From positions 124,001 through 188,000 of the forward strand of contig NZ_JAMXBJ010000047.1 in assembly GCF_023913755.1 (NCBI RefSeq): a DNA stretch of 64,000 nucleotides, in the 5' to 3' direction. Shown in pieces: positions 7,349 through 46,158 of the stretch; position 1 is the stretch's first letter; each line of letters opens with the position of its first letter. Both the position numbers and the translations under genes were made by a program. The notes under the pieces are model-generated. The model was not told where the DNA came from, searched no databases, and worked only from the letters and a program-made list of their open reading frames with translations. The DNA is from Pseudarthrobacter cellobiosi. Its GTDB lineage: Bacteria; Actinomycetota; Actinomycetes; Actinomycetales; Micrococcaceae.

Positions 7349-9259
7349 ATGAGCCAAGACACCGTCGAACTCTCATCCGTTGCCGACGACGGCACGGCAG
7401 AAGCGCTCGTCGCCGACTCATCCGAGGGGCAGGGCAAAGGCGCCCCGGCCCAGGCAGCGCCGGCCCAGGCCGCCCGCGAAGTCGCCAAGGGCGTGCAGAA
7501 AATGACACCGTCGGAGGCCTTCGTGGAGACGATGGTCGCCAACGACGTCACCGACATTTTCGGCATCATGGGTTCAGCCTTCATGGACGCCATGGACATC
7601 TTCGCCCCCGCAGGCATCCGCCTGGTTCCGGTGGTCCACGAGCAGGGCGCAGCCCACATGGCTGACGGCTATGCCCGTGCCAGCGGCCGCCACGGCGTGG
7701 TCATCGGCCAGAACGGCCCGGGCATCAGCAACTGCGTCACCGGCATCGCAGCGGCATTCTGGGCGCACAGCCCGGTGGTCATCGTGACGCCGGAAGCCGG
7801 CACCACGGGCATCGGCCTCGGCGGCTTCCAGGAGGCCAAGCAGCTGCCCATGTTCCAGGAATTCACCAAATACCAAGGCCACGTGACCCACCCGGCCCGC
7901 ATGGCCGAATTCACCGGCCGCTGCTTCGACCGCGCCATGTCTGAAAACGGACCCACCCAGCTGAACATCCCGCGTGACTACTTCTACGGCGAGATCACTG
8001 TGGAGATCCCGCAGCCGCGCCGCGTGGACCGCGGCGCCGGCGGTACCAAGAGCCTGGACGAGGCAGCGGCCCTGCTCGCCACGGCCAAGTTCCCCGTGAT
8101 CGTCTCCGGCGGCGGCGTCGTCATGGCCGACGGCGTGGAGGAATGCAAGGCCCTGGCCGAACGCCTGGGCGCCCCGGTGGTCAACAGCTACCAGCACAAC
8201 GACTCCTTCCCGGCCAGCCACCCCCTCTGGGCCGGACCGCTGGGCTACCAGGGATCCAAGGCGGGAATGAAGCTCATCTCCCAGGCCGACGTCGTGATCG
8301 CCCTCGGCACCCGCCTGGGCCCGTTCGGCACCCTGCCGCAGTACGGCCAGGCGTACTGGCCCACCGAAGCGAAGATCATCCAGATCGACGCCGACCACAC
8401 CATGCTGGGCCTGGTCAAGAAGATCAGCGTGGGCATCTGTGGCGATGCCAAGGCCGTGGCACTTGAACTGGGCAAGCGCCTGGACCAGCTCACCCTCGCC
8501 TGCGACGCCACGAAGGCCGAGCGTGCCGCCACCATCAAGGCTGAGAAGGAAAGCTGGGAAGAGGAACTCACCGCGTGGACGCACGAAAAGGATGAGTACA
8601 GCCTCGACATGCTCGAGGAGCACAAGAACGAGGACGGCAACTGGCTGTCCCCGCGCCAGGTCCTCCGCGAGCTCGAGAAGGCCATGCCGGAGAACGTCAT
8701 GATCTCCACGGACATCGGCAATATCAACTCCGTGGCCCACAGCTACCTGCGCTTCGAGAAACCGCGCAGCTTCTTCGCCCCGATGAGCTTCGGCAACTGC
8801 GGCTACGCCCTGCCGACCATGATCGGCGCCAAGGCCGCGGCCATGGACCGTCCCGCCGTGGCCTACGCCGGCGACGGCGCCTGGGCCATGAGCATGGGCG
8901 AAGTCCTCACCGCAGTGCGGCACGACATCCCGGTTACCGCCGTCGTCTTCCGCAACCGCCAGTGGGGTGCGGAGAAAAAGAACCAGGTGGAGTTCTACAA
9001 CCGCCGCTTCATTGCCGGCGAACTCGACAACGGCGAAAGCTTCGCCGCCATGGCCCAGACCATGGGAGCCGAAGGCATCGTGGTCGACCAGCTCGACGAG
9101 GTGGGCCCCGCGCTCAAGCGGGCGCTCGCCGCCCAGATGGAAGAGGGCAAGACCACGGTCATCGAGATCATGTGCACCCGCGAACTGGGAGACCCCTTCC
9201 GCCGCGATGCCCTCGCGAAGCCGGTCCGGACGCTCGAGAAGTACAAGGACTACGTGTAA
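7349..9259 (+). CDS. xsc: Sulfoacetaldehyde acetyltransferase
   Basis: Thiamine-diphosphate enzyme converting sulfoacetaldehyde and phosphate to acetyl phosphate and sulfite, the desulfonation step of taurine breakdown. It has 636 residues. The Pyr domain holds GIMGSAFMDAMDIF and VHEQGAAHMADGYARA with the activating Glu. The C-terminal PP domain holds AYAGDGAWAMSMGE, followed by the cofactor-binding segment VFRNRQWGAEKKNQVEFY. These are Xsc signatures and distinguish it from acetolactate synthase. The first about 48 residues are an extra Ala/Gln-rich extension with a repeated APAQAA. The ATG at 7349 follows GGAGGAGGAG. An aldehyde dehydrogenase follows after a hairpin. Confidence 0.95.
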   Translation: MSQDTVELSSVADDGTAEALVADSSEGQGKGAPAQAAPAQAAREVAKGVQKMTPSEAFVETMVANDVTDIFGIMGSAFMDAMDIFAPAGIRLVPVVHEQGAAHMADGYARASGRHGVVIGQNGPGISNCVTGIAAAFWAHSPVVIVTPEAGTTGIGLGGFQEAKQLPMFQEFTKYQGHVTHPARMAEFTGRCFDRAMSENGPTQLNIPRDYFYGEITVEIPQPRRVDRGAGGTKSLDEAAALLATAKFPVIVSGGGVVMADGVEECKALAERLGAPVVNSYQHNDSFPASHPLWAGPLGYQGSKAGMKLISQADVVIALGTRLGPFGTLPQYGQAYWPTEAKIIQIDADHTMLGLVKKISVGICGDAKAVALELGKRLDQLTLACDATKAERAATIKAEKESWEEELTAWTHEKDEYSLDMLEEHKNEDGNWLSPRQVLRELEKAMPENVMISTDIGNINSVAHSYLRFEKPRSFFAPMSFGNCGYALPTMIGAKAAAMDRPAVAYAGDGAWAMSMGEVLTAVRHDIPVTAVVFRNRQWGAEKKNQVEFYNRRFIAGELDNGESFAAMAQTMGAEGIVVDQLDEVGPALKRALAAQMEEGKTTVIEIMCTRELGDPFRRDALAKPVRTLEKYKDYV

Positions 9260-9281
9260 ATCCTCAGGTCAGTCCAGCCTT

Positions 9282-9318
9282 GCCTGTGGAGGTCTTCCGT
9301 GTGGAGGCCTCCACAGGC
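9282..9318 (+). other. Intergenic hairpin after xsc
   Basis: GCCTGTGGAGG at 9282-9292 pairs with CCTCCACAGGC at 9308-9318. No T run follows, so it may be an mRNA-processing or attenuating hairpin rather than a full terminator. A related hairpin follows the aminotransferase at 15460-15495. Confidence 0.6.
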
Positions 9319-9467
9319 CTGCTTCTGGAGTTGTAGCAAGACGGAAGCGGACGCCGTGGTCCTGACTTACGGCTCCTCCTGCACGGTGCTGGTCCAGCAG
9401 CTCAGTCTTCCAGGCCCGGCCGCGACAGGGCCAGATTTCTCGGCCGACCCCATAGAAAAGGACGCTC

Positions 9468-10961
9468 ATGAGTATCCAGTCAACGACCAACTCCCGGACC
9501 TCGCAGCAGGCGCTTGACGCCATCGCCACGGTCAGCACCGGCCTGTTCATCGACGGCGAATGGGCCGAAGCGGCGTCCGGGGCCCGTTTCGACGTCGTAA
9601 ATCCCGCCACTGAAGAGGTCATCGCCACGATAGCTGACGGCGGTCCCGAAGACGCCCGCCGGGCCATCGAAACCGCCGGCCGCGTACAGAAGGAATGGGC
9701 CAAGACCTCGCCGCGCGAGCGGAGCGAGATCCTGCGCCGTGCCTACGACCTGATCACGGCCCGCCAGGATGAGCTCGCTCTCATCATGACCTCCGAGATG
9801 GGCAAGCCGTTCCCGGAGGCCAAGGGCGAAGCGGCCTACGCCGCGGAGTTCTTCCGCTGGTTCTCCGAGGAAGCCGTGCGGATCGGCGGCGACCTGACCA
9901 CCACCGGCGACGGCAAGAACCGCGTCCTCGTCTCCAAGGAGCCCGTGGGCCCCTGCGTGCTGGTCACGCCGTGGAACTTCCCCCTGGCCATGGGCACCCG
10001 GAAGATCGGCCCGGCCATCGCGGCCGGCTGCACCATGGTGTTCAAGCCCGCCAACCTCGCCCCGCTGTCCTCCCTGGCGCTCGTGGACATCCTGATCGAG
10101 GCCGGCCTGCCCAGGGGTGTGCTCAACGTTGTCTGCACCACCAAGGCTGCGGAGGTGGTGTCGCCTTGGATGGCCAGCGGCATCGCCCGCAAGGTCAGCT
10201 TCACGGGCTCCACCGAAGTCGGCGTGCGCCTGCTCCAGCAGGCATCGCAGCACGTCATGCGCTCCTCAATGGAACTGGGCGGGAACGCCCCGTTCATCGT
10301 GTTCGAGGACGCTGACCTGGACCGCGCCGTGGATGGCGCAGTCGCCGCGAAGATGCGCAACATGGGCGAGGCCTGCACGGCAGCCAACCGGCTCTTTGTG
10401 CAGCGCCCCATCGCGGACGAATTCGCCCGACGGCTGGCCGCCCGCCTCAGTGCCCTTTCGGTGGGCGACGGAGCCGACTCCGGCACCGACGTCGGGCCCC
10501 TCGTCGAAGAGAAGGCACTCACTAAAATGCAGGAACTGGTGGACGACGCCGTGTCCAAGGGCGCCACGGTGGTGTGCGGTGGCTCCCGCCCGGACCGCCC
10601 CGGCTACTTCTACACTCCTACTGTTTTGTCCGGCGTCAGCCCGGATTCCGACCTGATGAGCCAGGAGATCTTCGGGCCCGTGGCTCCTGTGGTTCCCTTC
10701 GACACCGAAGAGGAAGTCACCCGCCTGGCCAACGACACCCCGTGGGGGCTGGTGGGCTATCTCTTCACACAGGACGTGGACCGGGGCTTCCGCATGGGCG
10801 ACGCCCTTGAAGTTGGCATGGTTGGGCTCAACACTGGAATTGTCTCCAACCCTGCGGCGCCCTTCGGCGGCATCAAGGCCTCCGGCCTGGGCCGCGAGGG
10901 TGGCCGGGTCGGAATCGAGGAATTCCTCGAGACCAAGTACATGGCTATTCCCCGCGTCTAA
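9468..10961 (+). CDS. NAD(P)-dependent aldehyde dehydrogenase (succinate-semialdehyde type)
   Basis: A 497-residue aldehyde dehydrogenase of the GabD group. It has the cofactor-site Asn in TPWNF (residue 170) and Lys in VFKPAN (193). The general base Glu269 is in MELGGNAP and the nucleophile Cys303 in GEACTAAN. The ATG at 9468 lacks a strong ribosome site (GGACGC lies just upstream). It follows xsc in the same direction after about 208 bases. In this setting it could oxidise sulfoacetaldehyde to sulfoacetate, or act on succinate semialdehyde as the wider family does; sequence alone does not separate these. Confidence 0.88.
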   Translation: MSIQSTTNSRTSQQALDAIATVSTGLFIDGEWAEAASGARFDVVNPATEEVIATIADGGPEDARRAIETAGRVQKEWAKTSPRERSEILRRAYDLITARQDELALIMTSEMGKPFPEAKGEAAYAAEFFRWFSEEAVRIGGDLTTTGDGKNRVLVSKEPVGPCVLVTPWNFPLAMGTRKIGPAIAAGCTMVFKPANLAPLSSLALVDILIEAGLPRGVLNVVCTTKAAEVVSPWMASGIARKVSFTGSTEVGVRLLQQASQHVMRSSMELGGNAPFIVFEDADLDRAVDGAVAAKMRNMGEACTAANRLFVQRPIADEFARRLAARLSALSVGDGADSGTDVGPLVEEKALTKMQELVDDAVSKGATVVCGGSRPDRPGYFYTPTVLSGVSPDSDLMSQEIFGPVAPVVPFDTEEEVTRLANDTPWGLVGYLFTQDVDRGFRMGDALEVGMVGLNTGIVSNPAAPFGGIKASGLGREGGRVGIEEFLETKYMAIPRV

Positions 10962-10988
10962 GCCCAGGCTAAGGCGCGGCCGGCTGCT

Positions 10989-11022
10989 GCCGTGGGGCTA
11001 CCAGAAGCTGGTGCCCCACGGC
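10989..11022 (+). terminator. Probable terminator after the aldehyde dehydrogenase
   Basis: GCCGTGGGGC (10989-10998) and GCCCCACGGC (11013-11022) form a perfect 10-bp stem 28 bases after the dehydrogenase stop. The regulator that follows is convergent. There is no clear T run, which is common in high-GC Actinobacteria. Confidence 0.6.
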
Positions 11023-11131
11023 ATACCGGGATGTCTGGCGGCAATTTTCTCCGCCGCATGCCTGCCGGACCACAACAGCGCCCGCAGCGGGGCATCAGCC
11101 GTTCTGGTGTCTGATGGGCCCCGTCAGGCCG

Positions 11132-12625
11132 CTATCCAGCGGCGATTTTGGGTCTGCCGTCTCTCCCGGCAAGCAGGATCTTTGCTTCCTCGCCGACCAC
11201 TGCCAAACCCTCCGCAATTGAGCGCGAGGGAATGGCGCCAAAACCAATCCTGAAGCAATTCCGCGGTGCGTCCGGTTGGATGAAATAAATATCGCCACGT
11301 TCAATGAGCACTCCGCGCTTTTCTACGGCGCGGACCAACTCCAAGGCATCCAGCCCGGGTGGCCCCTCCACCCAAAGACTGACGCCGCCGGGCGGGTAGG
11401 GGCCCTGCTCCCACGGCAGGCACTGCGCGGAGATCTCGGTGACCGTCTCCCAGCGCGTCTTCAGCTGCCGCCGGTGGCGGCGCAGGGCGCGGTGGTAGTC
11501 GCCACTGTCGATCATCAGGGCGAGGGCGCGCTGCATGTGCCCGGGAGGGTGGCGTACCTGATACCGCCGCACGCGCCGCAGTTCCGTGATCAGTTCCGCG
11601 GGCCCCACCAGGAACCCCAGCCGCAGCCCCGGGGAGAGGAACTTGGAGAATGTGCCGAGGTACAGCACGTCGCCGGTGGAGTCCAGCGCCTTCAGCGCGG
11701 GGCTGGGGCTGCCTTCATAGCGGAATTCGCTGTCGTAGTCATCCTCGATGAGCACCGTTCCGGAAGTGGCGGCGAGCTTGAGCAGACGACGGCGGCGCTC
11801 CATGCTCAGCGTGACGTTGGTCGGGTGGTGGTGGCTGGGGGTGACATACAGGAGGGCGGTGCCGCTAAGGGTCCCGGGGAGGCAGAGTCCGTCCCCGTCG
11901 ACGTCGATGCCGTAGACCTGGGCGCCGGTGCGCAGGAAGATGTGGCGGGCGTCAAGATAGCCGGGGTTCTCGATGCCCACGCGCTGGTGGGGGCCGAGCA
12001 GCGTCCTGGCCAGCAGGTCCAGACCCTGCTGGGAGCCCACCGTGATGAGGACTTCATCCGGCCCGGCCTCAATGCCGCGTGCGGGAAGGATCTGGCGGCG
12101 GATCATCTCGATGAGCATGGGGTCGTCCGCGCCTACGCTGTCCTGGAGGCTGGCGGAGCGGTGGGGCTGGTACAGGGCTTCGCGCAGGCTCCGCACCCAG
12201 GCGGTGGCAGGGAAGCTGTTGACATCCACCTGGCCGGCGACGAACGGGTATGGGTAGGTGTACCAGTCCGGGGTCTTTTCCACCTCCGGGATGTCTTCGT
12301 CGGCGTAGCGCCGCATCCGGGAGGACCAATCGATCATCGAATCCGTGGCGGGCACCTCGGCCTCGGCCGCGGCCAGCATTTCCGGGTTGACGAAGATCCC
12401 GCTGCGCTCATGGCTGATCACCAGGCCCTCGGTGAGCAGCTCCTGGTAGGCCAGGTTGATGGTGTTGCGGGCAACCTTGAGCTCGGCGGCCAGCTCGCGG
12501 GAGCTGGGGAGCCTGCGGCGTGAATCGAAGATACCGACGGCGATGCCGTGCTCGATGACGCGGCGGACCTGCCGGTACAGGGGTTCGCTGGAACTGCGGT
12601 CAATCTCTATGAGTGTCCGTGGCAC
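11132..12625 (-). CDS. MocR/TauR-like GntR-family regulator with aminotransferase domain
   Basis: A 497-residue MocR regulator: an N-terminal GntR winged helix (about 10-78, LPSSRELAAELKVARNTI) joined to a type-I aminotransferase fold used as effector domain. PLP-binding features are retained: DDYDSEFRY with the ring-contacting residues, and the Schiff-base lysine near residue 326 in GTFSKFLSPGLRLG. TauR, PdxR and GabR belong to this family and sense amino compounds through PLP. Position beside ald and the taurine aminotransferase suggests a TauR-like activator of taurine genes (inference). It reads in the same direction as ald and is separated from it by a strong terminator. Confidence 0.9.
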   Translation of the reverse strand: MPRTLIEIDRSSSEPLYRQVRRVIEHGIAVGIFDSRRRLPSSRELAAELKVARNTINLAYQELLTEGLVISHERSGIFVNPEMLAAAEAEVPATDSMIDWSSRMRRYADEDIPEVEKTPDWYTYPYPFVAGQVDVNSFPATAWVRSLREALYQPHRSASLQDSVGADDPMLIEMIRRQILPARGIEAGPDEVLITVGSQQGLDLLARTLLGPHQRVGIENPGYLDARHIFLRTGAQVYGIDVDGDGLCLPGTLSGTALLYVTPSHHHPTNVTLSMERRRRLLKLAATSGTVLIEDDYDSEFRYEGSPSPALKALDSTGDVLYLGTFSKFLSPGLRLGFLVGPAELITELRRVRRYQVRHPPGHMQRALALMIDSGDYHRALRRHRRQLKTRWETVTEISAQCLPWEQGPYPPGGVSLWVEGPPGLDALELVRAVEKRGVLIERGDIYFIQPDAPRNCFRIGFGAIPSRSIAEGLAVVGEEAKILLAGRDGRPKIAAG

Positions 12626-12670
12626 GATTCGCCTCCCAAGCAGCGCGGTGAAGTATCAGGACCGAAAGAA

Positions 12671-12699
12671 GCGGGGGAGTTCAGTATGAACTCCCCCGC
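12671..12699 (-). terminator. Intrinsic terminator of ald
   Basis: A perfect 13-bp stem with a 3-base loop: arm 12671-12683 (GCGGGGGAGTTCA) pairs with 12687-12699. On the minus strand it is followed by TTCTTTC. It separates ald from the MocR gene downstream. Confidence 0.9.
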
Positions 12700-12719
12700 C
12701 AAGAATTTCTCTTTGTACT

Positions 12720-13841
12720 TTAGCTACGGGCCAAAGATTCCAGTGAATCAACGACGTCGATGCCATGCGCCGCGCCGACCGCGGTGTTGGTCAGGCGGCC
12801 GCCCAGGGTGCTCAGGCCTGCGCGCAGTGCCGCATTCTCGGCCACGGCCCGCTCCACGCCCTTGTCGGCGATCTGCAGAACGTACGGAAGCGTGACGTTG
12901 GTCAGCGCGTAGGTGGAGGTGTGGGGGACGGCGCCCGGCATGTTGGCCACGCAGTAGAAGACGGAGCCGTGGACGCGGAAGGTGGGTTCCTGATGCGTGG
13001 TCGGGTGCGAATCCTCGAAGCAGCCGCCCTGGTCAATGGCGATGTCCACCAGGACGCTGCCGGGCTTCATACGGGAGACCAGCTCGTTGGAGATGATCTT
13101 GGGTGCCTTGGCCCCGGGGACCAGCACGGCGCCGATGACGAGGTCGGCCTGGATGACCTCCTGCTCGATGGCGAGCTGGTTGGCGGCGAGCGTGCGGACC
13201 CGGCCCTGGTACATGCGGTCCGCGGCGCGCAGCTTGTCCACGTTCTTGTCGAAGAGGACCACGTCCGCCCACATGCCGGCGGCCACGGCAACGGCGTTCA
13301 TGCCGGACACGCCGGCGCCGATGATGACCACGCGGGCAGGTGCCACGCCGGAGACGCCGCCGATCAGTACGCCGCGTCCGCCCTCGGGGCGGGTCAGGCA
13401 CTGTGCGCCCACCAGGGGAGCCAGCCGGCCGGCCACCTCGCTCATGGGGAACAGCAGCGGCAGCGAGCCGTCTTCGAGCTGGACCGTCTCGTAGGCAATG
13501 GATGTGCTGCCGGCGTCGAGCAGGGCCCGGGTGCAGGCCTCGTCGGCGGCCAGGTGCAGGTACGTGAAGATCGTCAGGTCCGGACGCATGCGGTGGTATT
13601 CCTCGGCGATCGGCTCCTTGACCTTAAGCAGCAGATCGGCGGCGGCCCAGACCTCGTCGGCCGTCTGAAGGATGGTGGCTCCCGCTACCGTGTACGCATC
13701 ATCGGAGATGGACGAGCCCTCTCCGGCGCCGGCCTCGATGAACACCTCGTGGCCGTGGGCAACGAGCTCGTGGACGCCGGCCGGCGTGACGGCTACTCGG
13801 TATTCGTGGGACTTGATTTCCTTCGGGATGCCGATCTTCAT
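12720..13841 (-). CDS. ald: Alanine dehydrogenase
   Basis: NAD-dependent L-alanine dehydrogenase, 373 residues, the usual family length. It starts MKIGIPKEIK and has the substrate-binding Lys75 (LKVKEP) and catalytic His96 (YLHLA). The Rossmann motif is VIIGAGVSGMNA, and VLVDIAIDQGGCFE near 267-280 holds the second catalytic acid. In the taurine pathway it deaminates the alanine formed by the aminotransferase, regenerating pyruvate and releasing ammonium. The ATG at 13841 follows GGAGGTCACA. It is divergent from the aminotransferase across a 232-base gap carrying repeated motifs. Confidence 0.95.
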   Translation of the reverse strand: MKIGIPKEIKSHEYRVAVTPAGVHELVAHGHEVFIEAGAGEGSSISDDAYTVAGATILQTADEVWAAADLLLKVKEPIAEEYHRMRPDLTIFTYLHLAADEACTRALLDAGSTSIAYETVQLEDGSLPLLFPMSEVAGRLAPLVGAQCLTRPEGGRGVLIGGVSGVAPARVVIIGAGVSGMNAVAVAAGMWADVVLFDKNVDKLRAADRMYQGRVRTLAANQLAIEQEVIQADLVIGAVLVPGAKAPKIISNELVSRMKPGSVLVDIAIDQGGCFEDSHPTTHQEPTFRVHGSVFYCVANMPGAVPHTSTYALTNVTLPYVLQIADKGVERAVAENAALRAGLSTLGGRLTNTAVGAAHGIDVVDSLESLARS

Positions 13842-13921
13842 TGTGACCTCCGGGTTGTTGATGGGTTGCGCTGCAAGTAAGTCCGCTGTGCGGGCTGCGC
13901 AGCATTATCGAAGTATGGTCC

Positions 13922-13980
13922 GGTCCAGGATGGGACCAGAAGCACCAGATGCGCGCCGGCTGACGGGACCAGACTGGACC
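13922..13980. promoter_or_regulatory. Candidate MocR/TauR operator region between ald and the aminotransferase
   Basis: GGGACCAGA occurs twice in direct orientation, at 13932-13940 and 13965-13973, 33 bases apart (about three helical turns). CTGGACC occurs at 13974-13980 and in inverted form at 13922-13928. MocR regulators commonly bind spaced direct repeats, and CTGGAC is close to what I recall of the described TauR site in Rhodobacter. This is the best visible site for the MocR regulator to act on both divergent genes. Confidence 0.5.
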
Positions 13981-14073
13981 CATCAGGCGGGCACCATGTG
14001 GCCCTGATGCCCGGTGTGGCCCCCAGCCTAGGCTTCGATCATCGCTACTCACCTCGACAAGAAGGAGATAGTC

Positions 14074-15438
14074 TTGGACGCCTCAACACTCCGGGCCCAG
14101 GCCCGGCGCCACCTCGGACCCCATTTCACACGCAAGGACACCTGGGACAGCGAGTTCCCGATTTTTGTCCGCGGCGAAGGAAGCTACCTCATTGACACCG
14201 AGGGGGACCGTTATCTGGACGGCCTCGCCGGTCTCTTCTGCGTGAACATGGGCCACGGCCGCCAGGACATTGCCAAGGCCGCCAGCGAGCAGATCAGCAC
14301 CCTGGCCTACGCCTCCAACTGGGGCTCGGCGCACCCGCCGGCCATCGAGGCCGCCGCGCTCATCGCGGACCTGGCCCCCGGCGACCTGGGCACGACGTTC
14401 TTCGTCAACTCCGGCTCCGAGGCCGTGGAGACGGCCCTGAAGTTTACCCGCCAGTACTTCCGCAGCCAGGGCCAGCCGCAGCGGACCAAAGTCATCAGCC
14501 GTGACATGGCATACCACGGCACCACCATGGGGGCCCTGTCCATTACGCAGCTGCCCAAGATCAAGGAGCCGTTCGGCGAGCTCCTGCCGGGCATCCGCAG
14601 CGTCCCGAACACCCTCGGATTCACCGGCGACTGCGGCCCGGTCACGGAGCTCGACTGCTTCCGCGCCATTGAGCGGGTGGTCCTCGAAGAGGGCCCTGAA
14701 ACCATTGCGGCCATCTTTGCCGAGCCGGTCCAGAACGGCCGCGGAGCCCTCGTGGCACCTGACGGCTACTGGCCGGCACTGCGCGCACTGTGCGACAAGT
14801 ACGGGATCCTCCTGGTCTCCGACGAAGTCATCTGCTCCTTCGGCCGGCTTGGCCACTTCTTCGGCTACGGCGTCACCGGCGTGGTCCCGGACCTGGTCAC
14901 CTTCGCCAAGGGCTCCACCTCCGGCTACGCCCCGCTGGGCGGCCTGATCGTCCGCGAGCAGCTGGTCCAAGAGCTGTTCAATTCCTCCACGGGCGGCGTC
15001 TTCACCCACGGCGCCACCTGGGGCGGGCACCCGGTGTCCACCGCCGTCGCGGTCGCCAATATCACCGCCATGCGCGACGAAAACGTCCTGGGCAACGTCC
15101 AGGAACAGGGCCCCAGGATCATGGAGGCCCTGGAATCCCTCAAGAACTCGCACCGCTGCGTCAAGGCAGTGCGGGGCACGGGCTTCTTCTACGCGATCGA
15201 ACTCATGGCGGACAGCTTCAGCGGCCGCGAACTGACCCAAGCAGAGTCGCTGAAGGTCCTGCGCGAGGTGCTCCCCGAGTCCTTCAAACGCACCAAGGTG
15301 ATCCTGCGCGGCGACGACCGCGGCGCCACCATGATCATGATCTCCCCGCCCCTGGTAGCCGACGCTGAGGTCCTGTCAGCGCTGCTGCACGGCGTGGACG
15401 GCATGCTCACCGACATCGAGAAGGCCATCCAGCCCTAA
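14074..15438 (+). CDS. tpa: Taurine:pyruvate aminotransferase (class III)
   Basis: PLP enzyme that moves the amino group of taurine to pyruvate, giving sulfoacetaldehyde and alanine. It has 454 residues. Class III features are present: VNSGSEAVETALK binding the PLP phosphate, ISRDMAYHGTT, LLVSDEVICSFGRLG with the ring-nitrogen Asp, and the Schiff-base Lys279 in TFAKGSTSGYAPLGG. The start is a TTG at 14074 behind GAAGGAGA; no ATG is available nearby. The assignment to taurine rests on neighbours (xsc, ald, pta, tauE). Close relatives act on omega-amino acids such as beta-alanine, which cannot be excluded. Confidence 0.88.
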   Translation: MDASTLRAQARRHLGPHFTRKDTWDSEFPIFVRGEGSYLIDTEGDRYLDGLAGLFCVNMGHGRQDIAKAASEQISTLAYASNWGSAHPPAIEAAALIADLAPGDLGTTFFVNSGSEAVETALKFTRQYFRSQGQPQRTKVISRDMAYHGTTMGALSITQLPKIKEPFGELLPGIRSVPNTLGFTGDCGPVTELDCFRAIERVVLEEGPETIAAIFAEPVQNGRGALVAPDGYWPALRALCDKYGILLVSDEVICSFGRLGHFFGYGVTGVVPDLVTFAKGSTSGYAPLGGLIVREQLVQELFNSSTGGVFTHGATWGGHPVSTAVAVANITAMRDENVLGNVQEQGPRIMEALESLKNSHRCVKAVRGTGFFYAIELMADSFSGRELTQAESLKVLREVLPESFKRTKVILRGDDRGATMIMISPPLVADAEVLSALLHGVDGMLTDIEKAIQP

Positions 15439-15459
15439 ACCACCGCATCCGGTTCTTCG

Positions 15460-15495
15460 CCTGCGGAGGCGCCCCCTCGTGGACGCCTCCGCAGG
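15460..15495 (+). other. Intergenic hairpin between tpa and pta
   Basis: CCTGCGGAGGCG (15460-15471) pairs perfectly with CGCCTCCGCAGG (15484-15495). A third half-copy, GCCTCCGCAGG, follows at 15507-15517. It resembles the hairpin after xsc. Without a T run it may modulate rather than end transcription into pta. Confidence 0.6.
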
Positions 15496-15537
15496 ATCCG
15501 ATGTGGCCTCCGCAGGTTCGAGATGAGAGGTACAACC

Positions 15538-16632
15538 ATGGCGACGGCGATTGTTGAGAAGCGCCTCCCGCAGGCAGCGTCGCCCGCGGGAAGTGCACTG
15601 TTTGAGCGCTGGCGCCAGGAGCTGTCCGGCCGCGGCCGGGTGGTCGGATTCGCCGACGGCGAGGACGAGCGTGCCGTCCGCGCTGCCAGTGCGTTGTCAG
15701 CGGAAGGAATTATCAGTCCCCGCCTCATCGGCAGAGCCAAGGAAATCCGGCGGCTGGCGGCCGAACTGGACTGTGTGCTGCCCGGCGACGCCATCCTCGA
15801 CGTCGGCGGGCTGGCCGGCGACAGCAGCATCGCCGCTCTGATCGGGGAGGCTTACTCCCGCAAGCCCGAGCAGTTGACCCATGCCAGTCAGGAACCGGTC
15901 CATATTGCCGCGGCCGCGTTGCGGGCCGGGTATCTGGACGCCTGTGTTGCCGGTGCCGGGACGCCCACGGCGCTGGTGCTCCGGGCCGCGCTGCGCGTGG
16001 TGGGCCTGGACCCCGGCTGCACCACCCTGAGCAGCTCGTTCCTGATGCTGCTGCCCGACGGAAGGGAACTGACGTTCGGCGATTGCGCCGTCGTTCCCGA
16101 TCCTTCCGCCGAACAGCTGGCGGACATCGCCGCCTCGGCAGCCGCCATGCACCAGGCGCTGACGGGGCAGTCGCCGAAGGTGGCCATGCTGTCCTTCAGC
16201 ACCCGGGGCAGCGCTATCCACTCACACGTGGACAAGGTCAGGTCCGCGAGGGAAATCCTGCGGACCCGCCACCCGCTGCTGCACGTGGATGGCGAGCTGC
16301 AGTTTGATGCCGCGCTGGTCCCCGCCATAGGGGCGGCGAAAGCGCCCGGCTCGGAGGTGGCGGGTCAGGCAAATGTGCTGGTGTTCCCCAGCCTGGACGC
16401 CGGAAACATCGGCTACAAGATCACCGAACGGCTCGGGGGAGCCGTGGCCGTGGGCCCGATCCTGCAGGGGCTGGCGGCGCCCCTGAACGATCTGTCCCGT
16501 GGTTGCAGCGCCGGGGACATCGCGTCCGTTGGCCTGTTGAGCGCCATGCAGTCGCTCTCCGTACTCGACAGAAAGGAGATCCGGCCTGAGCACGGCGCAA
16601 GCCCGCTCCGGGAGGATCGTAGACGACCATGA
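15538..16632 (+). CDS. pta: Phosphate acetyltransferase
   Basis: Converts acetyl phosphate from Xsc to acetyl-CoA. It has 364 residues and is the short single-domain form, about 30 residues longer than the usual 330. Recognisable parts are [21 protein letters not shown] near the N-terminal third, a [12 protein letters not shown] strand, [10 protein letters not shown], and the C-terminal [20 protein letters not shown]. The ATG at 15538 has GAGAGG seven bases upstream and is preferred over the ATG at 15523. The stop overlaps the start of the YeiH-like gene as ATGA. Its place in the island links it to taurine carbon recovery. Confidence 0.9.
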
Positions 16633-42338: not shown

Positions 42339-42764
42339 TCAGGGCTGTGACGTCCGGGACAGGATCCAGGTGTTGGTGCCGTCCTGGCGTTCGAAGGTCA
42401 CGGTGGTGACCAGCGCCTCGATGAGCGCCAGGCCGCGGCCGGACTCGGAATCGTCGTCCGGGGTTCCCGGTTCCAGGGGGCCGAACGGCGGATTGGCGAA
42501 GAATGCGCTGACCCGGGCCTGCAGGAGCCTGGGCTGGACGCTGATGTCCACTCCCAGCTCCACCGGTTTCTTTGCCTTGGCCGGCTGGGCGTGCTGGACG
42601 ATGTTGGACGCGGACTCGATCACCGCCGTGGTGAAGGTCATCTGGTCCATGGCCTGGACGAACGGGGCGTCCGCCCAGAGGCCGTCCAGCTCGTTGTGGA
42701 CGGCTTCGATGGCCTCGGCCGTGGACAGTCCCCGGAAGCTCCGCTGGGCCAGGATCTCAGTCAT
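42339..42764 (-). CDS. RsbW-like serine-kinase/anti-sigma ATPase
   Basis: A 141-residue GHKL ATPase of the anti-sigma-factor type (HATPase_c_2). The N-box is TTAVIESASNIVQHAQ, G1 is reduced to PDDDSESGRGLALIEAL, and strands VELGVDISVQ and NTWILSRT follow. It overlaps the STAS gene by eight bases. In partner-switch systems this kind of protein phosphorylates the STAS protein and binds a sigma factor or other client. No sigma gene is next to it, so the client here is unknown. Confidence 0.85.
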   Translation of the reverse strand: MTEILAQRSFRGLSTAEAIEAVHNELDGLWADAPFVQAMDQMTFTTAVIESASNIVQHAQPAKAKKPVELGVDISVQPRLLQARVSAFFANPPFGPLEPGTPDDDSESGRGLALIEALVTTVTFERQDGTNTWILSRTSQP

Positions 42765-43089
42765 TGCTGAACGCCTCGTCGGCGGAGGCGTAGGCAGTCA
42801 GCACCCGGTCCATGCTGGTCAGCTCGAGCACCATTTTGACCTGCGGCTGGACGGCGGCGATGCGGAGGTCCCCGCCGGCCTGACGGGCGGCCTTGAGGCA
42901 GCCGATCAGCGCGCCGAGGCCGGAGGAATCCATAAACGCTGTGTTCTCCAGGTTCACCACGATCCGCGAGGAACCGCCGGCGATCACATCGGTGACGAAT
43001 TCGCGCAGCTTGGGCGCGGACACCATGTTCAGCCGCCCGTCAGCCTTGACCTCCGCGTACGAATCCTTGACCTCGTAACTAAACTCCAT
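42757..43089 (-). CDS. STAS-domain anti-anti-sigma factor-like protein
   Basis: A 110-residue STAS protein: FSYEVKDSYAEVKADGRLNM, VVNLENTAFMDSSGLGALIG with the phosphorylatable Ser pair, and MVLELTSMDRVL. The ATG at 43089 overlaps the glycosyltransferase stop by 11 bases, behind GAGAGG. It should be phosphorylated by the RsbW-like kinase and dephosphorylated by the SpoIIE-type phosphatase encoded at the head of the operon. Confidence 0.88.
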   Translation of the reverse strand: MEFSYEVKDSYAEVKADGRLNMVSAPKLREFVTDVIAGGSSRIVVNLENTAFMDSSGLGALIGCLKAARQAGGDLRIAAVQPQVKMVLELTSMDRVLTAYASADEAFSND

Positions 43090-45049
43090 CGGCTTTCCTC
43101 TCTCCAGCATCAACGTTCACAGCGGGTTCGTAGCCCTTGTACAAAACAGCTCGGACCAGGATGCTCATGACCACCAGGTCAAAAATAACCCAACCCACGT
43201 TCACCAGCGTGCCAAGCGGCTCGGCCAGTCCCGTGGCCAGCCGGATAATCCCGACGACGACGGCCACCGCCAGCAGCACACTCACCACAATCTGGGGCCG
43301 GATGAGGCTCCAGCTGGGGCCGCCGGTCTGGCGGGCTTTGGGGGTGACGGCGAACCCGAGGGGGCGGCCGAACCAGACGTTCCGGGCCGCCGTCGAACAC
43401 GCTTTGATCCAGGTGGGGAACAGTGCCAGGCTGTACTGCTGGCCGCGCCAGGTGGGTATTCCGCGGCCTGCCACCGCGAAAAGCAGCTGGTTCGCGACCA
43501 TAAACGGGATGAACCGCAGGAAGAAGTCCCAGCTGAGGCTGGACACGGGCAGGACGCCCAGCAGCAGGTAGATGATGGGGGCGGCGAAGTAGACGACCGC
43601 CGCATAACCGCTCAGGTAGGTCCACATCGTGGCAAAGTACATCAGCCGCTGGCCGATCTTCAGGCCCTTCTGCACCAGCGGGTTCTCGCGGAGCAGCACC
43701 TGCATGGTCCCCTGCGCCCAGCGGAGGCGCTGGGTGAGCATGGTCTTGAGGTCCTCGGGCGCCAGACCGTAAGCCAGGATCTCGTGGTGGTAGACACTTT
43801 CCCAGCCCATGGCATGCATGCGCATGGCCGTGGCCATGTCCTCGGTGACGGAGATGGTGGCCAGCGGCATGACCGGCTGGGCTTCGTCGTTGCGCTCAAC
43901 GCTCAGGGCATCCAGGACGGCCTGCACGGATTCCAGCGCGCCGAGCGGCGACCAGTCACGGGCCGACATGCGCTGGACGGCGTCATCGGCCACCACCGGG
44001 ACGCCGGCATCACCCACATGGGCGAGTTCCATGGCGGCGATCTCTTCGAGGTCGGCCTGCAGCGCGGACATGTCAGCCTCGACCAGCGTCTGCACGGCCG
44101 CGTCCACGCGGCGGCGGACCCGGTACGTGATCTCGCTCAACGGCTGTCCGGTCGCCAGCTGCTCCTGGGCTTCGCGCGTGGCGGCCTCCACCGCGTCCAG
44201 CACTTCAGCTACGAGCGGGGTGTCCATGTCAGCGGATTTCCGCGCCTGGCGGATGGCGGACCGGGAAGCCGTGAGGGCCCGGCGGATGCTCTTTTCAGTC
44301 TCCTTGACGTAGCCCACCAGGCCCAGCTGCATCAGTGCTTCACGGCGCAGGATGGCGTTGGAGCCGCAGAAGAACGCCGCGTTCCAGCCGTCCTTGCCCT
44401 GCTGGATGGGCCCGTAGAACAGGGGTGCCTGGCTGCCGAGGGGATCGTGGGCGGGCACGTTGCTGAAGTACTGCGGCGTCTGGACCAGGGCCACCCGGCG
44501 GTTGTTGAAATAGCCCAGGGTCTTTTCCAGGATGTCCGGCTCGGGGATCTGGTCCGCATCCAGGATCAGCAGGAATTCGCCGTGCGTGACCATCATGGCG
44601 TTGTTCAGGTTGCCGGCTTTGGCGTGGCGCGGCACCTTGGCGGTCCAGTCCTCACTCCGGGTCACATAACCCAGCCCGTGCTCTTCGGCGAGGGCCTTCA
44701 GCTCGGGGCGGGCGCCGTCGTCGAGAATCCAGGTGCTGTGCGGGTGCCGGATCTTCTGGGCCGCCAGGGCAGTGGTCATCACCATGTCCAGGTCTTCGTT
44801 GTACGTGGTGATGAAGACGTCCACGGTGGCATCGTGGGGCGGCGCGGGTGCTCCCTTGCGGATCTTGAGCTGCCACACGGTCATCCCGAACAGCATCACG
44901 TCGATCAGGCTGTAGGTCTCAGCCAGCACCAGGGGCACGGCGATCCACCAGGCATCCCAGTTCAGCGACGACGCCCAGCGCCAGCCCACATAGTTCAGGC
45001 CGAAGATGACCGTCAGGACCACCGCCAGGCGGGTCCAGAAGCGCGTCAT
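43079..45049 (-). CDS. Cellulose-synthase-like family 2 glycosyltransferase with inserted helical region
   Basis: A 656-residue membrane processive glycosyltransferase. Two N-terminal helices precede the GT2 domain. The catalytic series is present: DDG (110-112), DAD (164-166), FFCGSN (227-231), TED (402-404) and QRLRW (440-444). Several C-terminal helices follow. In BcsA-type enzymes TED comes about 20-30 residues after FFCGS; here about 145 extra residues (about 247-395), mostly helical and Ala/Glu/Arg rich, sit between them. It is coupled by ATGA to the response regulator upstream and overlaps the STAS gene downstream. No PilZ domain is seen, so control by protein partners rather than c-di-GMP is likely (inference). 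Confidence 0.88.
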   Translation of the reverse strand: MTRFWTRLAVVLTVIFGLNYVGWRWASSLNWDAWWIAVPLVLAETYSLIDVMLFGMTVWQLKIRKGAPAPPHDATVDVFITTYNEDLDMVMTTALAAQKIRHPHSTWILDDGARPELKALAEEHGLGYVTRSEDWTAKVPRHAKAGNLNNAMMVTHGEFLLILDADQIPEPDILEKTLGYFNNRRVALVQTPQYFSNVPAHDPLGSQAPLFYGPIQQGKDGWNAAFFCGSNAILRREALMQLGLVGYVKETEKSIRRALTASRSAIRQARKSADMDTPLVAEVLDAVEAATREAQEQLATGQPLSEITYRVRRRVDAAVQTLVEADMSALQADLEEIAAMELAHVGDAGVPVVADDAVQRMSARDWSPLGALESVQAVLDALSVERNDEAQPVMPLATISVTEDMATAMRMHAMGWESVYHHEILAYGLAPEDLKTMLTQRLRWAQGTMQVLLRENPLVQKGLKIGQRLMYFATMWTYLSGYAAVVYFAAPIIYLLLGVLPVSSLSWDFFLRFIPFMVANQLLFAVAGRGIPTWRGQQYSLALFPTWIKACSTAARNVWFGRPLGFAVTPKARQTGGPSWSLIRPQIVVSVLLAVAVVVGIIRLATGLAEPLGTLVNVGWVIFDLVVMSILVRAVLYKGYEPAVNVDAGERKADGV

Positions 45050-46158
45050 GCCGGGGCTGGCTCAGGCAGGCGGCGGACCACCACTACGGTGACATCATCC
45101 TCGGCGGTTTCGGCAGGGGCCAGTGCCATGATGGCGTCGCTGGCGGACTGCGCGGAAACCTCGCCATGGGCTGCGGCGAGCACCGCCTCGGTGAATTGCT
45201 CCACCGAGTCAAAAACATCCAGCACGCCGTCGCTGGCCACCACCAGGGAGTCCCCCGGGGCCAGGGCGACGGCGGACTGCGGCCAGGCGGATCCGGCCCA
45301 GGCGCCCACGGGCGGACCGCCGCTGGGAAGACGGTGCGCCGACCCCTCGGCGGTGACATGCAGCGCCAGTCCGTGGCCGGCGTCGACATAGCTGACGACG
45401 CCGGAAGCGGCGTCCAGGCGGGCGTGGAAGAGGGTGACAAATGAGTTGGAGGAATCCAGGTCCGCCGCGATAGTGGTGCTGGCGGAGGCGAAGGCGGCGT
45501 CCAGGTCTTGGCGCTGTCCCGTGGACCGCATGACGGCCCGGACGGTGGCCGCGATGAGGGCGGCGCCCATGCCCTTGCCCATGGCATCGGCGAACGTCAG
45601 GTGCAGACCCTCCGGCGTGCGGTACCAATCGTAGAAGTCACCGCCGACGCTGCGGGAGGGGCGGAAGACGCCGGCGACGTCGTACCCGTTCACCCGGACG
45701 TCCTCCTGGGGCAGCAGGCTCTGCTGGACCTCGGTGGCGCGCTCCAGCTCGCTCGCCACGGCTGTGTCCGCGGCGGACGGCTGCCGGCGGCGGAACAGGG
45801 CGTTGATCCTGGATTGGAGTTCGCGCGGGCTGAACGGCTTGCTGATGTAGTCATCGGCGCCGTTGTCCAAGCCCGTGAGCTTGTCCAGTTCGTCGGCACG
45901 GGCGGTGAGCATCACGATGAAGGCATCAGAGAATTCACGGAGGAGTTTGCAGACTTCCAGCCCGTCCACGTCCGGGAGGTTCAGGTCCAGTGTGATGAGA
46001 TCCGGCTTGGCGCGGCGGACCTCCTCCACGCCGGGCAGGCCGGCTTCAGCGTGGGTGACCTCGAAACCCTGCTTGGTCAGGATCCGGACGAGGAGGCCTC
46101 GGATGTCCGGATCGTCCTCAATCACAACGGCACGGCGCGGTTCGGGCATGGAAGGCAT
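45046..46158 (-). CDS. Response regulator with SpoIIE/PP2C phosphatase output (RsbU-like)
   Basis: A 370-residue protein. The receiver domain (9-120) has acidic pair EDD (14-16), phospho-acceptor Asp58 in LITLDLNLP and Lys107 in DDYISKPF. A short linker (130-150, ATEVQQSLLP) leads into a PP2C-type phosphatase with SVGGDFYDW (171-178), TFADAMGKGMGAAL, LDAASGVVSYVDAGH and GDSLVVASDGVLDVFD. Metal-binding Asp residues are present. It is predicted to dephosphorylate the STAS protein on an input signal. No histidine kinase is adjacent. It heads a four-gene overlapping operon. Confidence 0.92.
   Translation of the reverse strand: MPSMPEPRRAVVIEDDPDIRGLLVRILTKQGFEVTHAEAGLPGVEEVRRAKPDLITLDLNLPDVDGLEVCKLLREFSDAFIVMLTARADELDKLTGLDNGADDYISKPFSPRELQSRINALFRRRQPSAADTAVASELERATEVQQSLLPQEDVRVNGYDVAGVFRPSRSVGGDFYDWYRTPEGLHLTFADAMGKGMGAALIAATVRAVMRSTGQRQDLDAAFASASTTIAADLDSSNSFVTLFHARLDAASGVVSYVDAGHGLALHVTAEGSAHRLPSGGPPVGAWAGSAWPQSAVALAPGDSLVVASDGVLDVFDSVEQFTEAVLAAAHGEVSAQSASDAIMALAPAETAEDDVTVVVVRRLPEPAPA

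Follow-up and report, generated by a model that had tools for sequence, protein, structure and literature searches.

A partner-switch operon around a BcsA-like, PilZ-free glycosyltransferase in Pseudarthrobacter cellobiosi, a candidate phospho-switch for polysaccharide synthesis

Architecture of the operon

We analyzed a window of 64,000 nucleotides from Pseudarthrobacter cellobiosi (contig NZ_JAMXBJ010000047.1), in which positions 42339–46158 hold overlapping genes for a receiver-PP2C phosphatase, a membrane GT2 synthase, a STAS protein and an RsbW-like kinase (Table 1). The four genes named in the initial annotation are confirmed: all lie on the minus strand, the positions match and the domain calls agree; adjoining genes overlap by 4–11 bases. 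For the STAS gene, the ATG at 43089, which gives 110 aa, is a likelier start than the TTG at 43113 of the open reading frame list. The operon is flanked downstream by purF and a gene for a 111-aa membrane protein and upstream by genes for a GNAT and a peroxiredoxin-like protein, and the best match of the GT2 (98%) comes from Pseudarthrobacter sp. MDT3-9. Scans for promoters, terminators and Rfam families yielded nothing useful, and clustering of the flanking ORFs, which was confounded by antisense ORFs, found no further same-strand neighbor that most loci share. Elsewhere in the window (7349–16632), a family scan placed genes for a thiamine-pyrophosphate enzyme, an aldehyde dehydrogenase, a class-III aminotransferase and a phosphate acetyltransferase close together, presumably a taurine/sulfoacetaldehyde dissimilation cluster.

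Table 1. Features of the operon and of related loci (operon coordinates refer to the window, others to the named locus)
Feature	Coordinates	Strand	Description
Receiver-PP2C/SpoIIE-type phosphatase	45046..46158	-	370 aa; operon gene 1; receiver 11-118, PP2C 183-363
BcsA-like membrane GT2 synthase	43079..45049	-	656 aa; Pfam Cellulose_synt 4.8e-24; without PilZ; LDDG, DAD, TED, QRLRW
GT2 insert, 151 residues (246-396)	43862..44314	-	between FFCGS...LRR and TED; mainly a predicted three-helix bundle
STAS protein, anti-sigma-factor-antagonist type	42757..43089	-	110 aa; phosphorylatable Ser in FMDSSGLG
RsbW-like GHKL ATPase/kinase	42339..42764	-	141 aa; N-box and G2-like motifs present, G1-box DxG missing
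Paralogue GT2 and STAS	L144 7400-9957; L145 7484-9985
Switch loci of family genomes without insert GT2	L221, L222, L223, L224		STAS/RsbW, three with receiver-PP2C

The textbook targets of partner switches are sigma factors, and the parts of such a switch are recognizable here. The receiver-PP2C protein matches the Pfam families Response_reg (5.2e-28) and SpoIIE (1.6e-32), and its metal-binding aspartate motifs are intact (GGDFYD, ADAMGKG, ASDGVLD and EDDVT); the Pfam scan gave no HATPase match within it, and the kinase is a separate gene. The STAS protein matches Pfam STAS (1.3e-18) and TIGR00377 (2.5e-24), its closest solved structures are those of SpoIIAA, and the motif D-S-(S/T)-G-L-G is present in all 135 aligned STAS rows, 109 of them distinct. 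The RsbW-like protein passes the cut-off of HATPase_c_2 (3.4e-11), and its match to the RsbW structure 6m36 is weak (E 0.09). The genome has 14 HATPase_c_2 matches, of which 13 lie in frames of at least 425 aa and only that of the operon lies in a short one (152 aa). Of the N, G1 and G2 motifs of RsbW/SpoIIAB kinases, the N-box is kept in 134 of 134 rows; the operon protein lacks the G1-box DxG, which 17 of 113 distinct homologues possess, most of these belonging to other families. Loss of the G1-box may mean weaker ATP binding and with it a weakened kinase, or a protein that only binds; the intact motifs of the phosphatase and the conserved serine of STAS argue that phosphorylation would still matter.

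The input side is less uniform. Six of the eight PP2C proteins that we scanned from related loci carry a GAF domain (one barely over the cut-off) and two have no recognized sensor. The receiver-PP2C gene is preceded at two loci (L182 and L063) by a divergently oriented histidine kinase gene. No histidine kinase adjoins the operon of the window; three related kinases are encoded elsewhere in the genome at 40–46% identity, one with in-frame stops and two with a receiver domain nearby. That sensors vary while GT2, STAS and RsbW stay constant fits a dedicated output.

A BcsA-like synthase with a long insert beside the TED motif

Like BcsA, the GT2 has membrane helices, the BcsA fold and the catalytic motifs DDG, DxD, TED and QxxRW (here DDG, DAD, TED and QRLRW). 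Its core aligns with the BcsA structure 9b8v_E over 483 residues (Z 31.9, rmsd 2.6), and the next structural matches are CesA structures. Unlike BcsA, it reaches 354 bits against the curated model TIGR03030, about half of the cut-off of 699, has a longer loop between the RR and TED motifs, and lacks PilZ, the domain through which c-di-GMP usually controls canonical BcsA. The Pfam scan found no PilZ in the operon GT2 and none in 55 homologues that share its insert, compared with 16 of 26 insert-free actinobacterial control synthases, and no BcsB, BcsC or BcsZ was recognized among the neighboring ORFs scanned. On the absence of PilZ, the model score below cut-off and the neighbors scanned, we rejected a canonical bcs operon.

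The phmmer alignment to BcsA falls into two blocks, residues 3–245 and 397–632, with 151 extra residues between them. In an AlphaFold2 model built from a 55-sequence alignment (mean pLDDT 79.5), this interval is predicted to form helices at 236–272, 278–299 and 304–341, followed by a low-confidence stretch at ∼341–400. The insert sits in the cytosolic GT domain and adjoins TED, the motif at which the finger helix of BcsA begins; it extends the RR-to-TED loop to 165 aa, against 14 aa in all 24 comparison synthases. In a search of 396 phylum genomes, the insert appeared only within GT2s, namely those of the window genome and of one other genome of the same class, and a search of plasmids found none.

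Conservation of the switch beside the synthase

A survey of operon conservation, suggested with the initial annotation, found a conserved association of the switch with the synthase. We used the best 80 of 460 relatives, so that closely related genomes are over-represented, and then sampled 149 family, 394 class and 396 phylum genomes. Among 121 distinct loci with an insert-type GT2, STAS and RsbW genes adjoin it on the same strand in 112, a degree of conservation that rules out chance adjacency, and RsbW adjoins wherever STAS does. The nine exceptions are varied: two loci stop at a contig edge (L027, L095), three have STAS and RsbW at another place within the locus (L073, L075, L077), in two the switch is located elsewhere in the genome (L166, L169), one has no switch within 13 kb (L071) and in one the GT2 copy is missing part of its catalytic region (L176). 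None of 18 insert-free loci, with flanks of up to about 8 kb, contained STAS, RsbW or PP2C genes. These counts are not independent of each other, since the switch-linked synthases are mutually related.

The same association is seen at the level of whole genomes. Within the 149 family genomes, all 26 that have the insert GT2 also have the STAS gene, which is found in 30 genomes overall and thus in 4 of the 123 without the insert GT2 (Fisher 3.5e-25, kinship ignored); counted by genus, STAS is present in 10 of 10 genera with the insert GT2 and 1 of 22 without (Fisher 1.7e-7). In two genomes (G116, G130) the GT2 stands alone and receiver-PP2C, STAS and RsbW are encoded at another place. Three of the four genomes without the insert GT2 have receiver-PP2C, STAS and RsbW (G034, G102, G133), and the fourth only STAS and RsbW (G121).

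We rejected natural GT2-STAS/RsbW fusions in the fetched loci: the large frames that suggested them are long stop-free stretches, and the GT2 and STAS matches of the compared loci fall in separate frames. In one genome (G006, L176 7298–9367) there is a second, apparently defective insert-GT2 copy with part of its catalytic region gone, and at another locus (L180) a detached piece of a GT2 tail lies about 5 kb from a STAS gene.

Sigma factors in the operon-bearing genomes

The observation in the initial annotation that the operon comes without a sigma factor extends to the genome, within the scope of the SigB/F/G-type model TIGR02980 used here: none was found among the selected window ORFs scanned, and no match in the genome passes the cut-off of the model. 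The best match scores 130 bits, lies in a frame of 445 aa and resembles a housekeeping factor, like the corresponding match of the other genomes. A match passes the cut-off in 13 of 45 operon genomes and exceeds 140 bits, used as a lower threshold, in 31. In the other 14, the window genome included, STAS and RsbW adjoin the GT2 without exception. No match above 140 bits was found in G034, G102 or G133 either; having neither insert GT2 nor SigB-like factor, these genomes would hold a switch that serves another target or is a relic, one or the other.

A paralogous synthase with a STAS protein that lacks the phosphorylatable serine

Two genomes of the same genus (G063 and G137) have, in addition to the standard operon, a gene for a divergent GT2 whose insert is shorter (123 aa from RR to TED); the protein encoded after it contains a STAS domain (Pfam 1.7e-9 and 1.5e-10). 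Here the conserved D-S-S-G reads G-A-S-G, so that the position of the phospho-serine is an alanine, and no match to RsbW or PP2C was found in the 18-kb paralogue loci. The two cases amount to one evolutionary event. The pair looks like a switch frozen on, by analogy with the S56A form of Vibrio fischeri SypA, which is described in passages of PMC10120452 as active whatever SypE does.

Related loci in other phyla

A tblastn search of plasmids recovered a comparable cluster in Cyanobacteriota: plasmid pn1 of Nostoc sp. UHCC 0926 (L225 8917–16271) carries, within ∼7 kb, genes for a PilZ-less GT2 and a STAS protein along with a receiver, part of a PP2C and an RsbW-like ORF. The cluster is broken by a transposase-like ORF and also contains DUF3131 genes, and its GT2 has ∼100 extra residues elsewhere in the protein, in the interval from LDDG to a KAGN motif. 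All nine proteobacterial loci examined (plasmid-borne cases included), from Pantoea, Chimaeribacter, Sphingobium, Paracoccus, Pseudooceanicola, Vibrio and a Rhodobacteraceae member, have PP2C, STAS and RsbW genes beside a PilZ-less GT2, with a receiver before the PP2C in eight. A matching STAS gene accompanies the GT2 in each of the 17 top-ranked records with a Pantoea-type GT2 (at least 55% identity), which are not independent since ten are from Pantoea or Salmonella. By comparison, four canonical bcsA loci contained no PP2C, STAS or RsbW genes. Genes for DUF3131, acyltransferase or OpgC proteins occur at the proteobacterial loci as well, and the first two kinds, or other genes, could be the output there; common to all phyla are GT2, PP2C, STAS and RsbW.

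The loop preceding TED separates the two kinds of synthase. From RR to TED it measures 36–174 aa in every one of the 20 switch-linked synthases and 14 aa in each of 24 others. The proteobacterial and Nostoc relatives have loops of 36–60 aa and no long insert, so the long insert is not required for association with the switch. In a tree built without thinly filled columns, and hence with the long insert left out, all 20 switch-linked GT2s fall on one side of a branch, apart from canonical BcsA, with moderate support (80/88, not starred), and the actinobacterial ones form a group of their own (100/100). The loop expansion may therefore have arisen once; the correlation is one within a single lineage.

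We also compared the divergence of the insert and of the operon proteins across loci, starting with 129 loci, duplicates included, and keeping 41 dereplicated operons. After the signal of the GT2 core was removed, which takes out shared ancestry only in part, the residual correlation was highest between the insert and STAS (0.44), followed by STAS-RsbW (0.40), STAS-PP2C (0.30), insert-RsbW (0.27), insert-PP2C (0.25) and RsbW-PP2C (0.15). All lie above nearly all permutations, so only their ranking is suggestive.

The plasmid loci L226–L230 and L234–L237 combine DUF3131-GT2 genes with partner-switch genes. A heme-NO-binding protein is encoded near the Pseudooceanicola locus and a globin near the Pantoea stewartii and Chimaeribacter loci, a hint at possible gas sensing. 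In Pantoea stewartii DC283, the phosphatase gene is separated from what is left of a STAS gene by IS66 genes (pDSJ10, L229 613–5270).

Proposed mechanism and alternatives

The initial annotation had proposed that the STAS or RsbW-like protein controls the synthase post-translationally in place of a sigma factor. Its core, the synthase as output, is favored by adjacency, co-occurrence, the missing SigB-type factors in 14 of 45 operon genomes, recurrence in other phyla and the phospho-dead STAS beside a GT2 alone; four STAS-bearing genomes without the GT2 and the lost G1-box of the RsbW-like protein count against it. Taking all routes of control together, we regard the synthase as quite probably the output of the switch. 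For the specific reading that the operon joins a polysaccharide synthase to a dedicated phospho-switch, with unphosphorylated STAS licensing synthesis, we would put the probability at roughly 0.58.

In the mechanism that we infer, as we do the GT2 as output, STAS as effector, the binding site, whether control is positive or negative, and what polymer is made, a signal would lead to phosphorylation of the receiver of the receiver-PP2C protein, and the activated PP2C domain would remove the phosphate from the STAS protein. Unphosphorylated STAS would then release from the RsbW-like protein and dock on the GT2 from the cytosolic side, with the insert beside TED as the most plausible site, and docking would license polymer synthesis. 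With the phosphatase idle, the RsbW-like protein would phosphorylate or hold STAS, leaving the synthase off. The switch would in this way stand in for the PilZ domain and c-di-GMP of canonical BcsA. A broader version, in which phospho-controlled STAS gates a PilZ-free branch of synthases across Actinomycetota, Pseudomonadota and Cyanobacteriota by binding directly at the extended loop beside TED, is tentative, and we would give it somewhat less than even odds.

Two other accounts keep the switch and change its target or its effector. RsbW, STAS and PP2C parts classically target sigma factors, and the switch here might act on a distant one, SigB-like or of another type such as an ECF factor, with the synthase gene merely co-transcribed; the SigB-like matches above 140 bits in 31 of 45 operon genomes would suit this, as would the three switch-bearing genomes without GT2, for which another target is possible. 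Those three are themselves without a SigB-like match, however, as are the window genome and 13 other operon genomes at the same threshold, and co-transcription leaves unexplained both the recurrence beside related synthases in other phyla and the paralogue GT2 accompanied by a phospho-dead STAS alone; we consider control of a distant sigma factor improbable. It is likewise unlikely, in our estimation, that the RsbW-like protein is the direct effector, binding and inhibiting the GT2 until titrated away by unphosphorylated STAS, as RsbW is from its sigma factor. This arrangement would preserve the canonical topology with an enzyme in place of the sigma factor, RsbW adjoins wherever STAS does, and loss of the G1-box would suit a protein that only binds. 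Yet the paralogue GT2 has a STAS protein and no RsbW nearby, the insert correlates more strongly with STAS than with RsbW, and in Vibrio SypE/SypA the STAS protein is the downstream component (as described in passages of PMC10120452). Such points lead us to infer that STAS, rather than the RsbW-like protein, would be the direct effector.

The insert could also have a role unrelated to the switch, with the regulatory genes merely sharing its history. The class-specific region of plant CesA has a proposed role in oligomerization or in recruiting secretion partners, and it occupies the same interval as the insert; in the structural comparison CesA follows directly behind BcsA, and all switch-linked synthases belong to one related group. 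Against this, the linkage persists down to about 56% GT2 identity and across three phyla, and insert-free synthases are without switch genes; we consider such a separate role very improbable.

If STAS does license the synthase, a processive polysaccharide synthase could be switched by a second route that does not depend on c-di-GMP. Linkage, co-occurrence and structural change tie one membrane enzyme to the switch and make it a concrete candidate target.

Relation to known systems

The operon has PP2C, conserved-serine STAS and GHKL ATPase components in common with the SigB/SigF modules (RsbU/V/W and SpoIIE/AA/AB); unlike these, neither operon nor genome has a SigB/F/G factor. Partner switching as such is already known, and what would be new is a polysaccharide synthase as its direct output. 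Among the open-licence PMC papers listed by full-text searches, none describes the pairing of switch and synthase in its title or the start of its abstract.

The closest functional parallels concern polysaccharides, and the likeness drawn here is one of gene anatomy and description, with a shared function putative. The Vibrio fischeri syp biofilm polysaccharide system has a receiver-containing PP2C, RsbW-like kinase activity and a STAS protein, all with matching parts in the operon. SypE combines kinase, receiver and phosphatase in one protein, whereas the window operon has separate genes and a BcsA-like synthase as candidate target. In the passages of PMC10120452 and PMC4517449 that treat it, SypA is the downstream STAS component, its non-phosphorylatable S56A form is active, and its target is stated to be unknown. 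HmpU, HmpV and HmpW of Nostoc punctiforme, likened here by description only, are separate PP2C, STAS and RsbW proteins, as in the window operon, that affect polysaccharide; their passage in the review PMC8256260 states the target as unknown and, in a difference from the operon, names no BcsA-like synthase partner. Direct control of a synthase by STAS, if it holds, would hint at the kind of target that SypA and HmpV have.

In two further systems the output runs through c-di-GMP. SiaA and SiaB of Pseudomonas aeruginosa are the phosphatase and kinase that regulate the activator of SiaD. In SiaABCD, according to the abstract of PMC8457831, the regulated protein directly activates the diguanylate cyclase SiaD, so that its output is c-di-GMP synthesis; the window switch would act on the polymer synthase and bypass c-di-GMP. 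BspP of Burkholderia glumae, a SpoIIE-HATPase protein tied to pellicles, was rejected as a precedent for direct synthase control, as it works via c-di-GMP levels and bcsB expression in the account given in parts of PMC7444824. The review passage on the Nostoc proteins also describes Anabaena all4160 as a GT-STAS fusion (PMC8256260).
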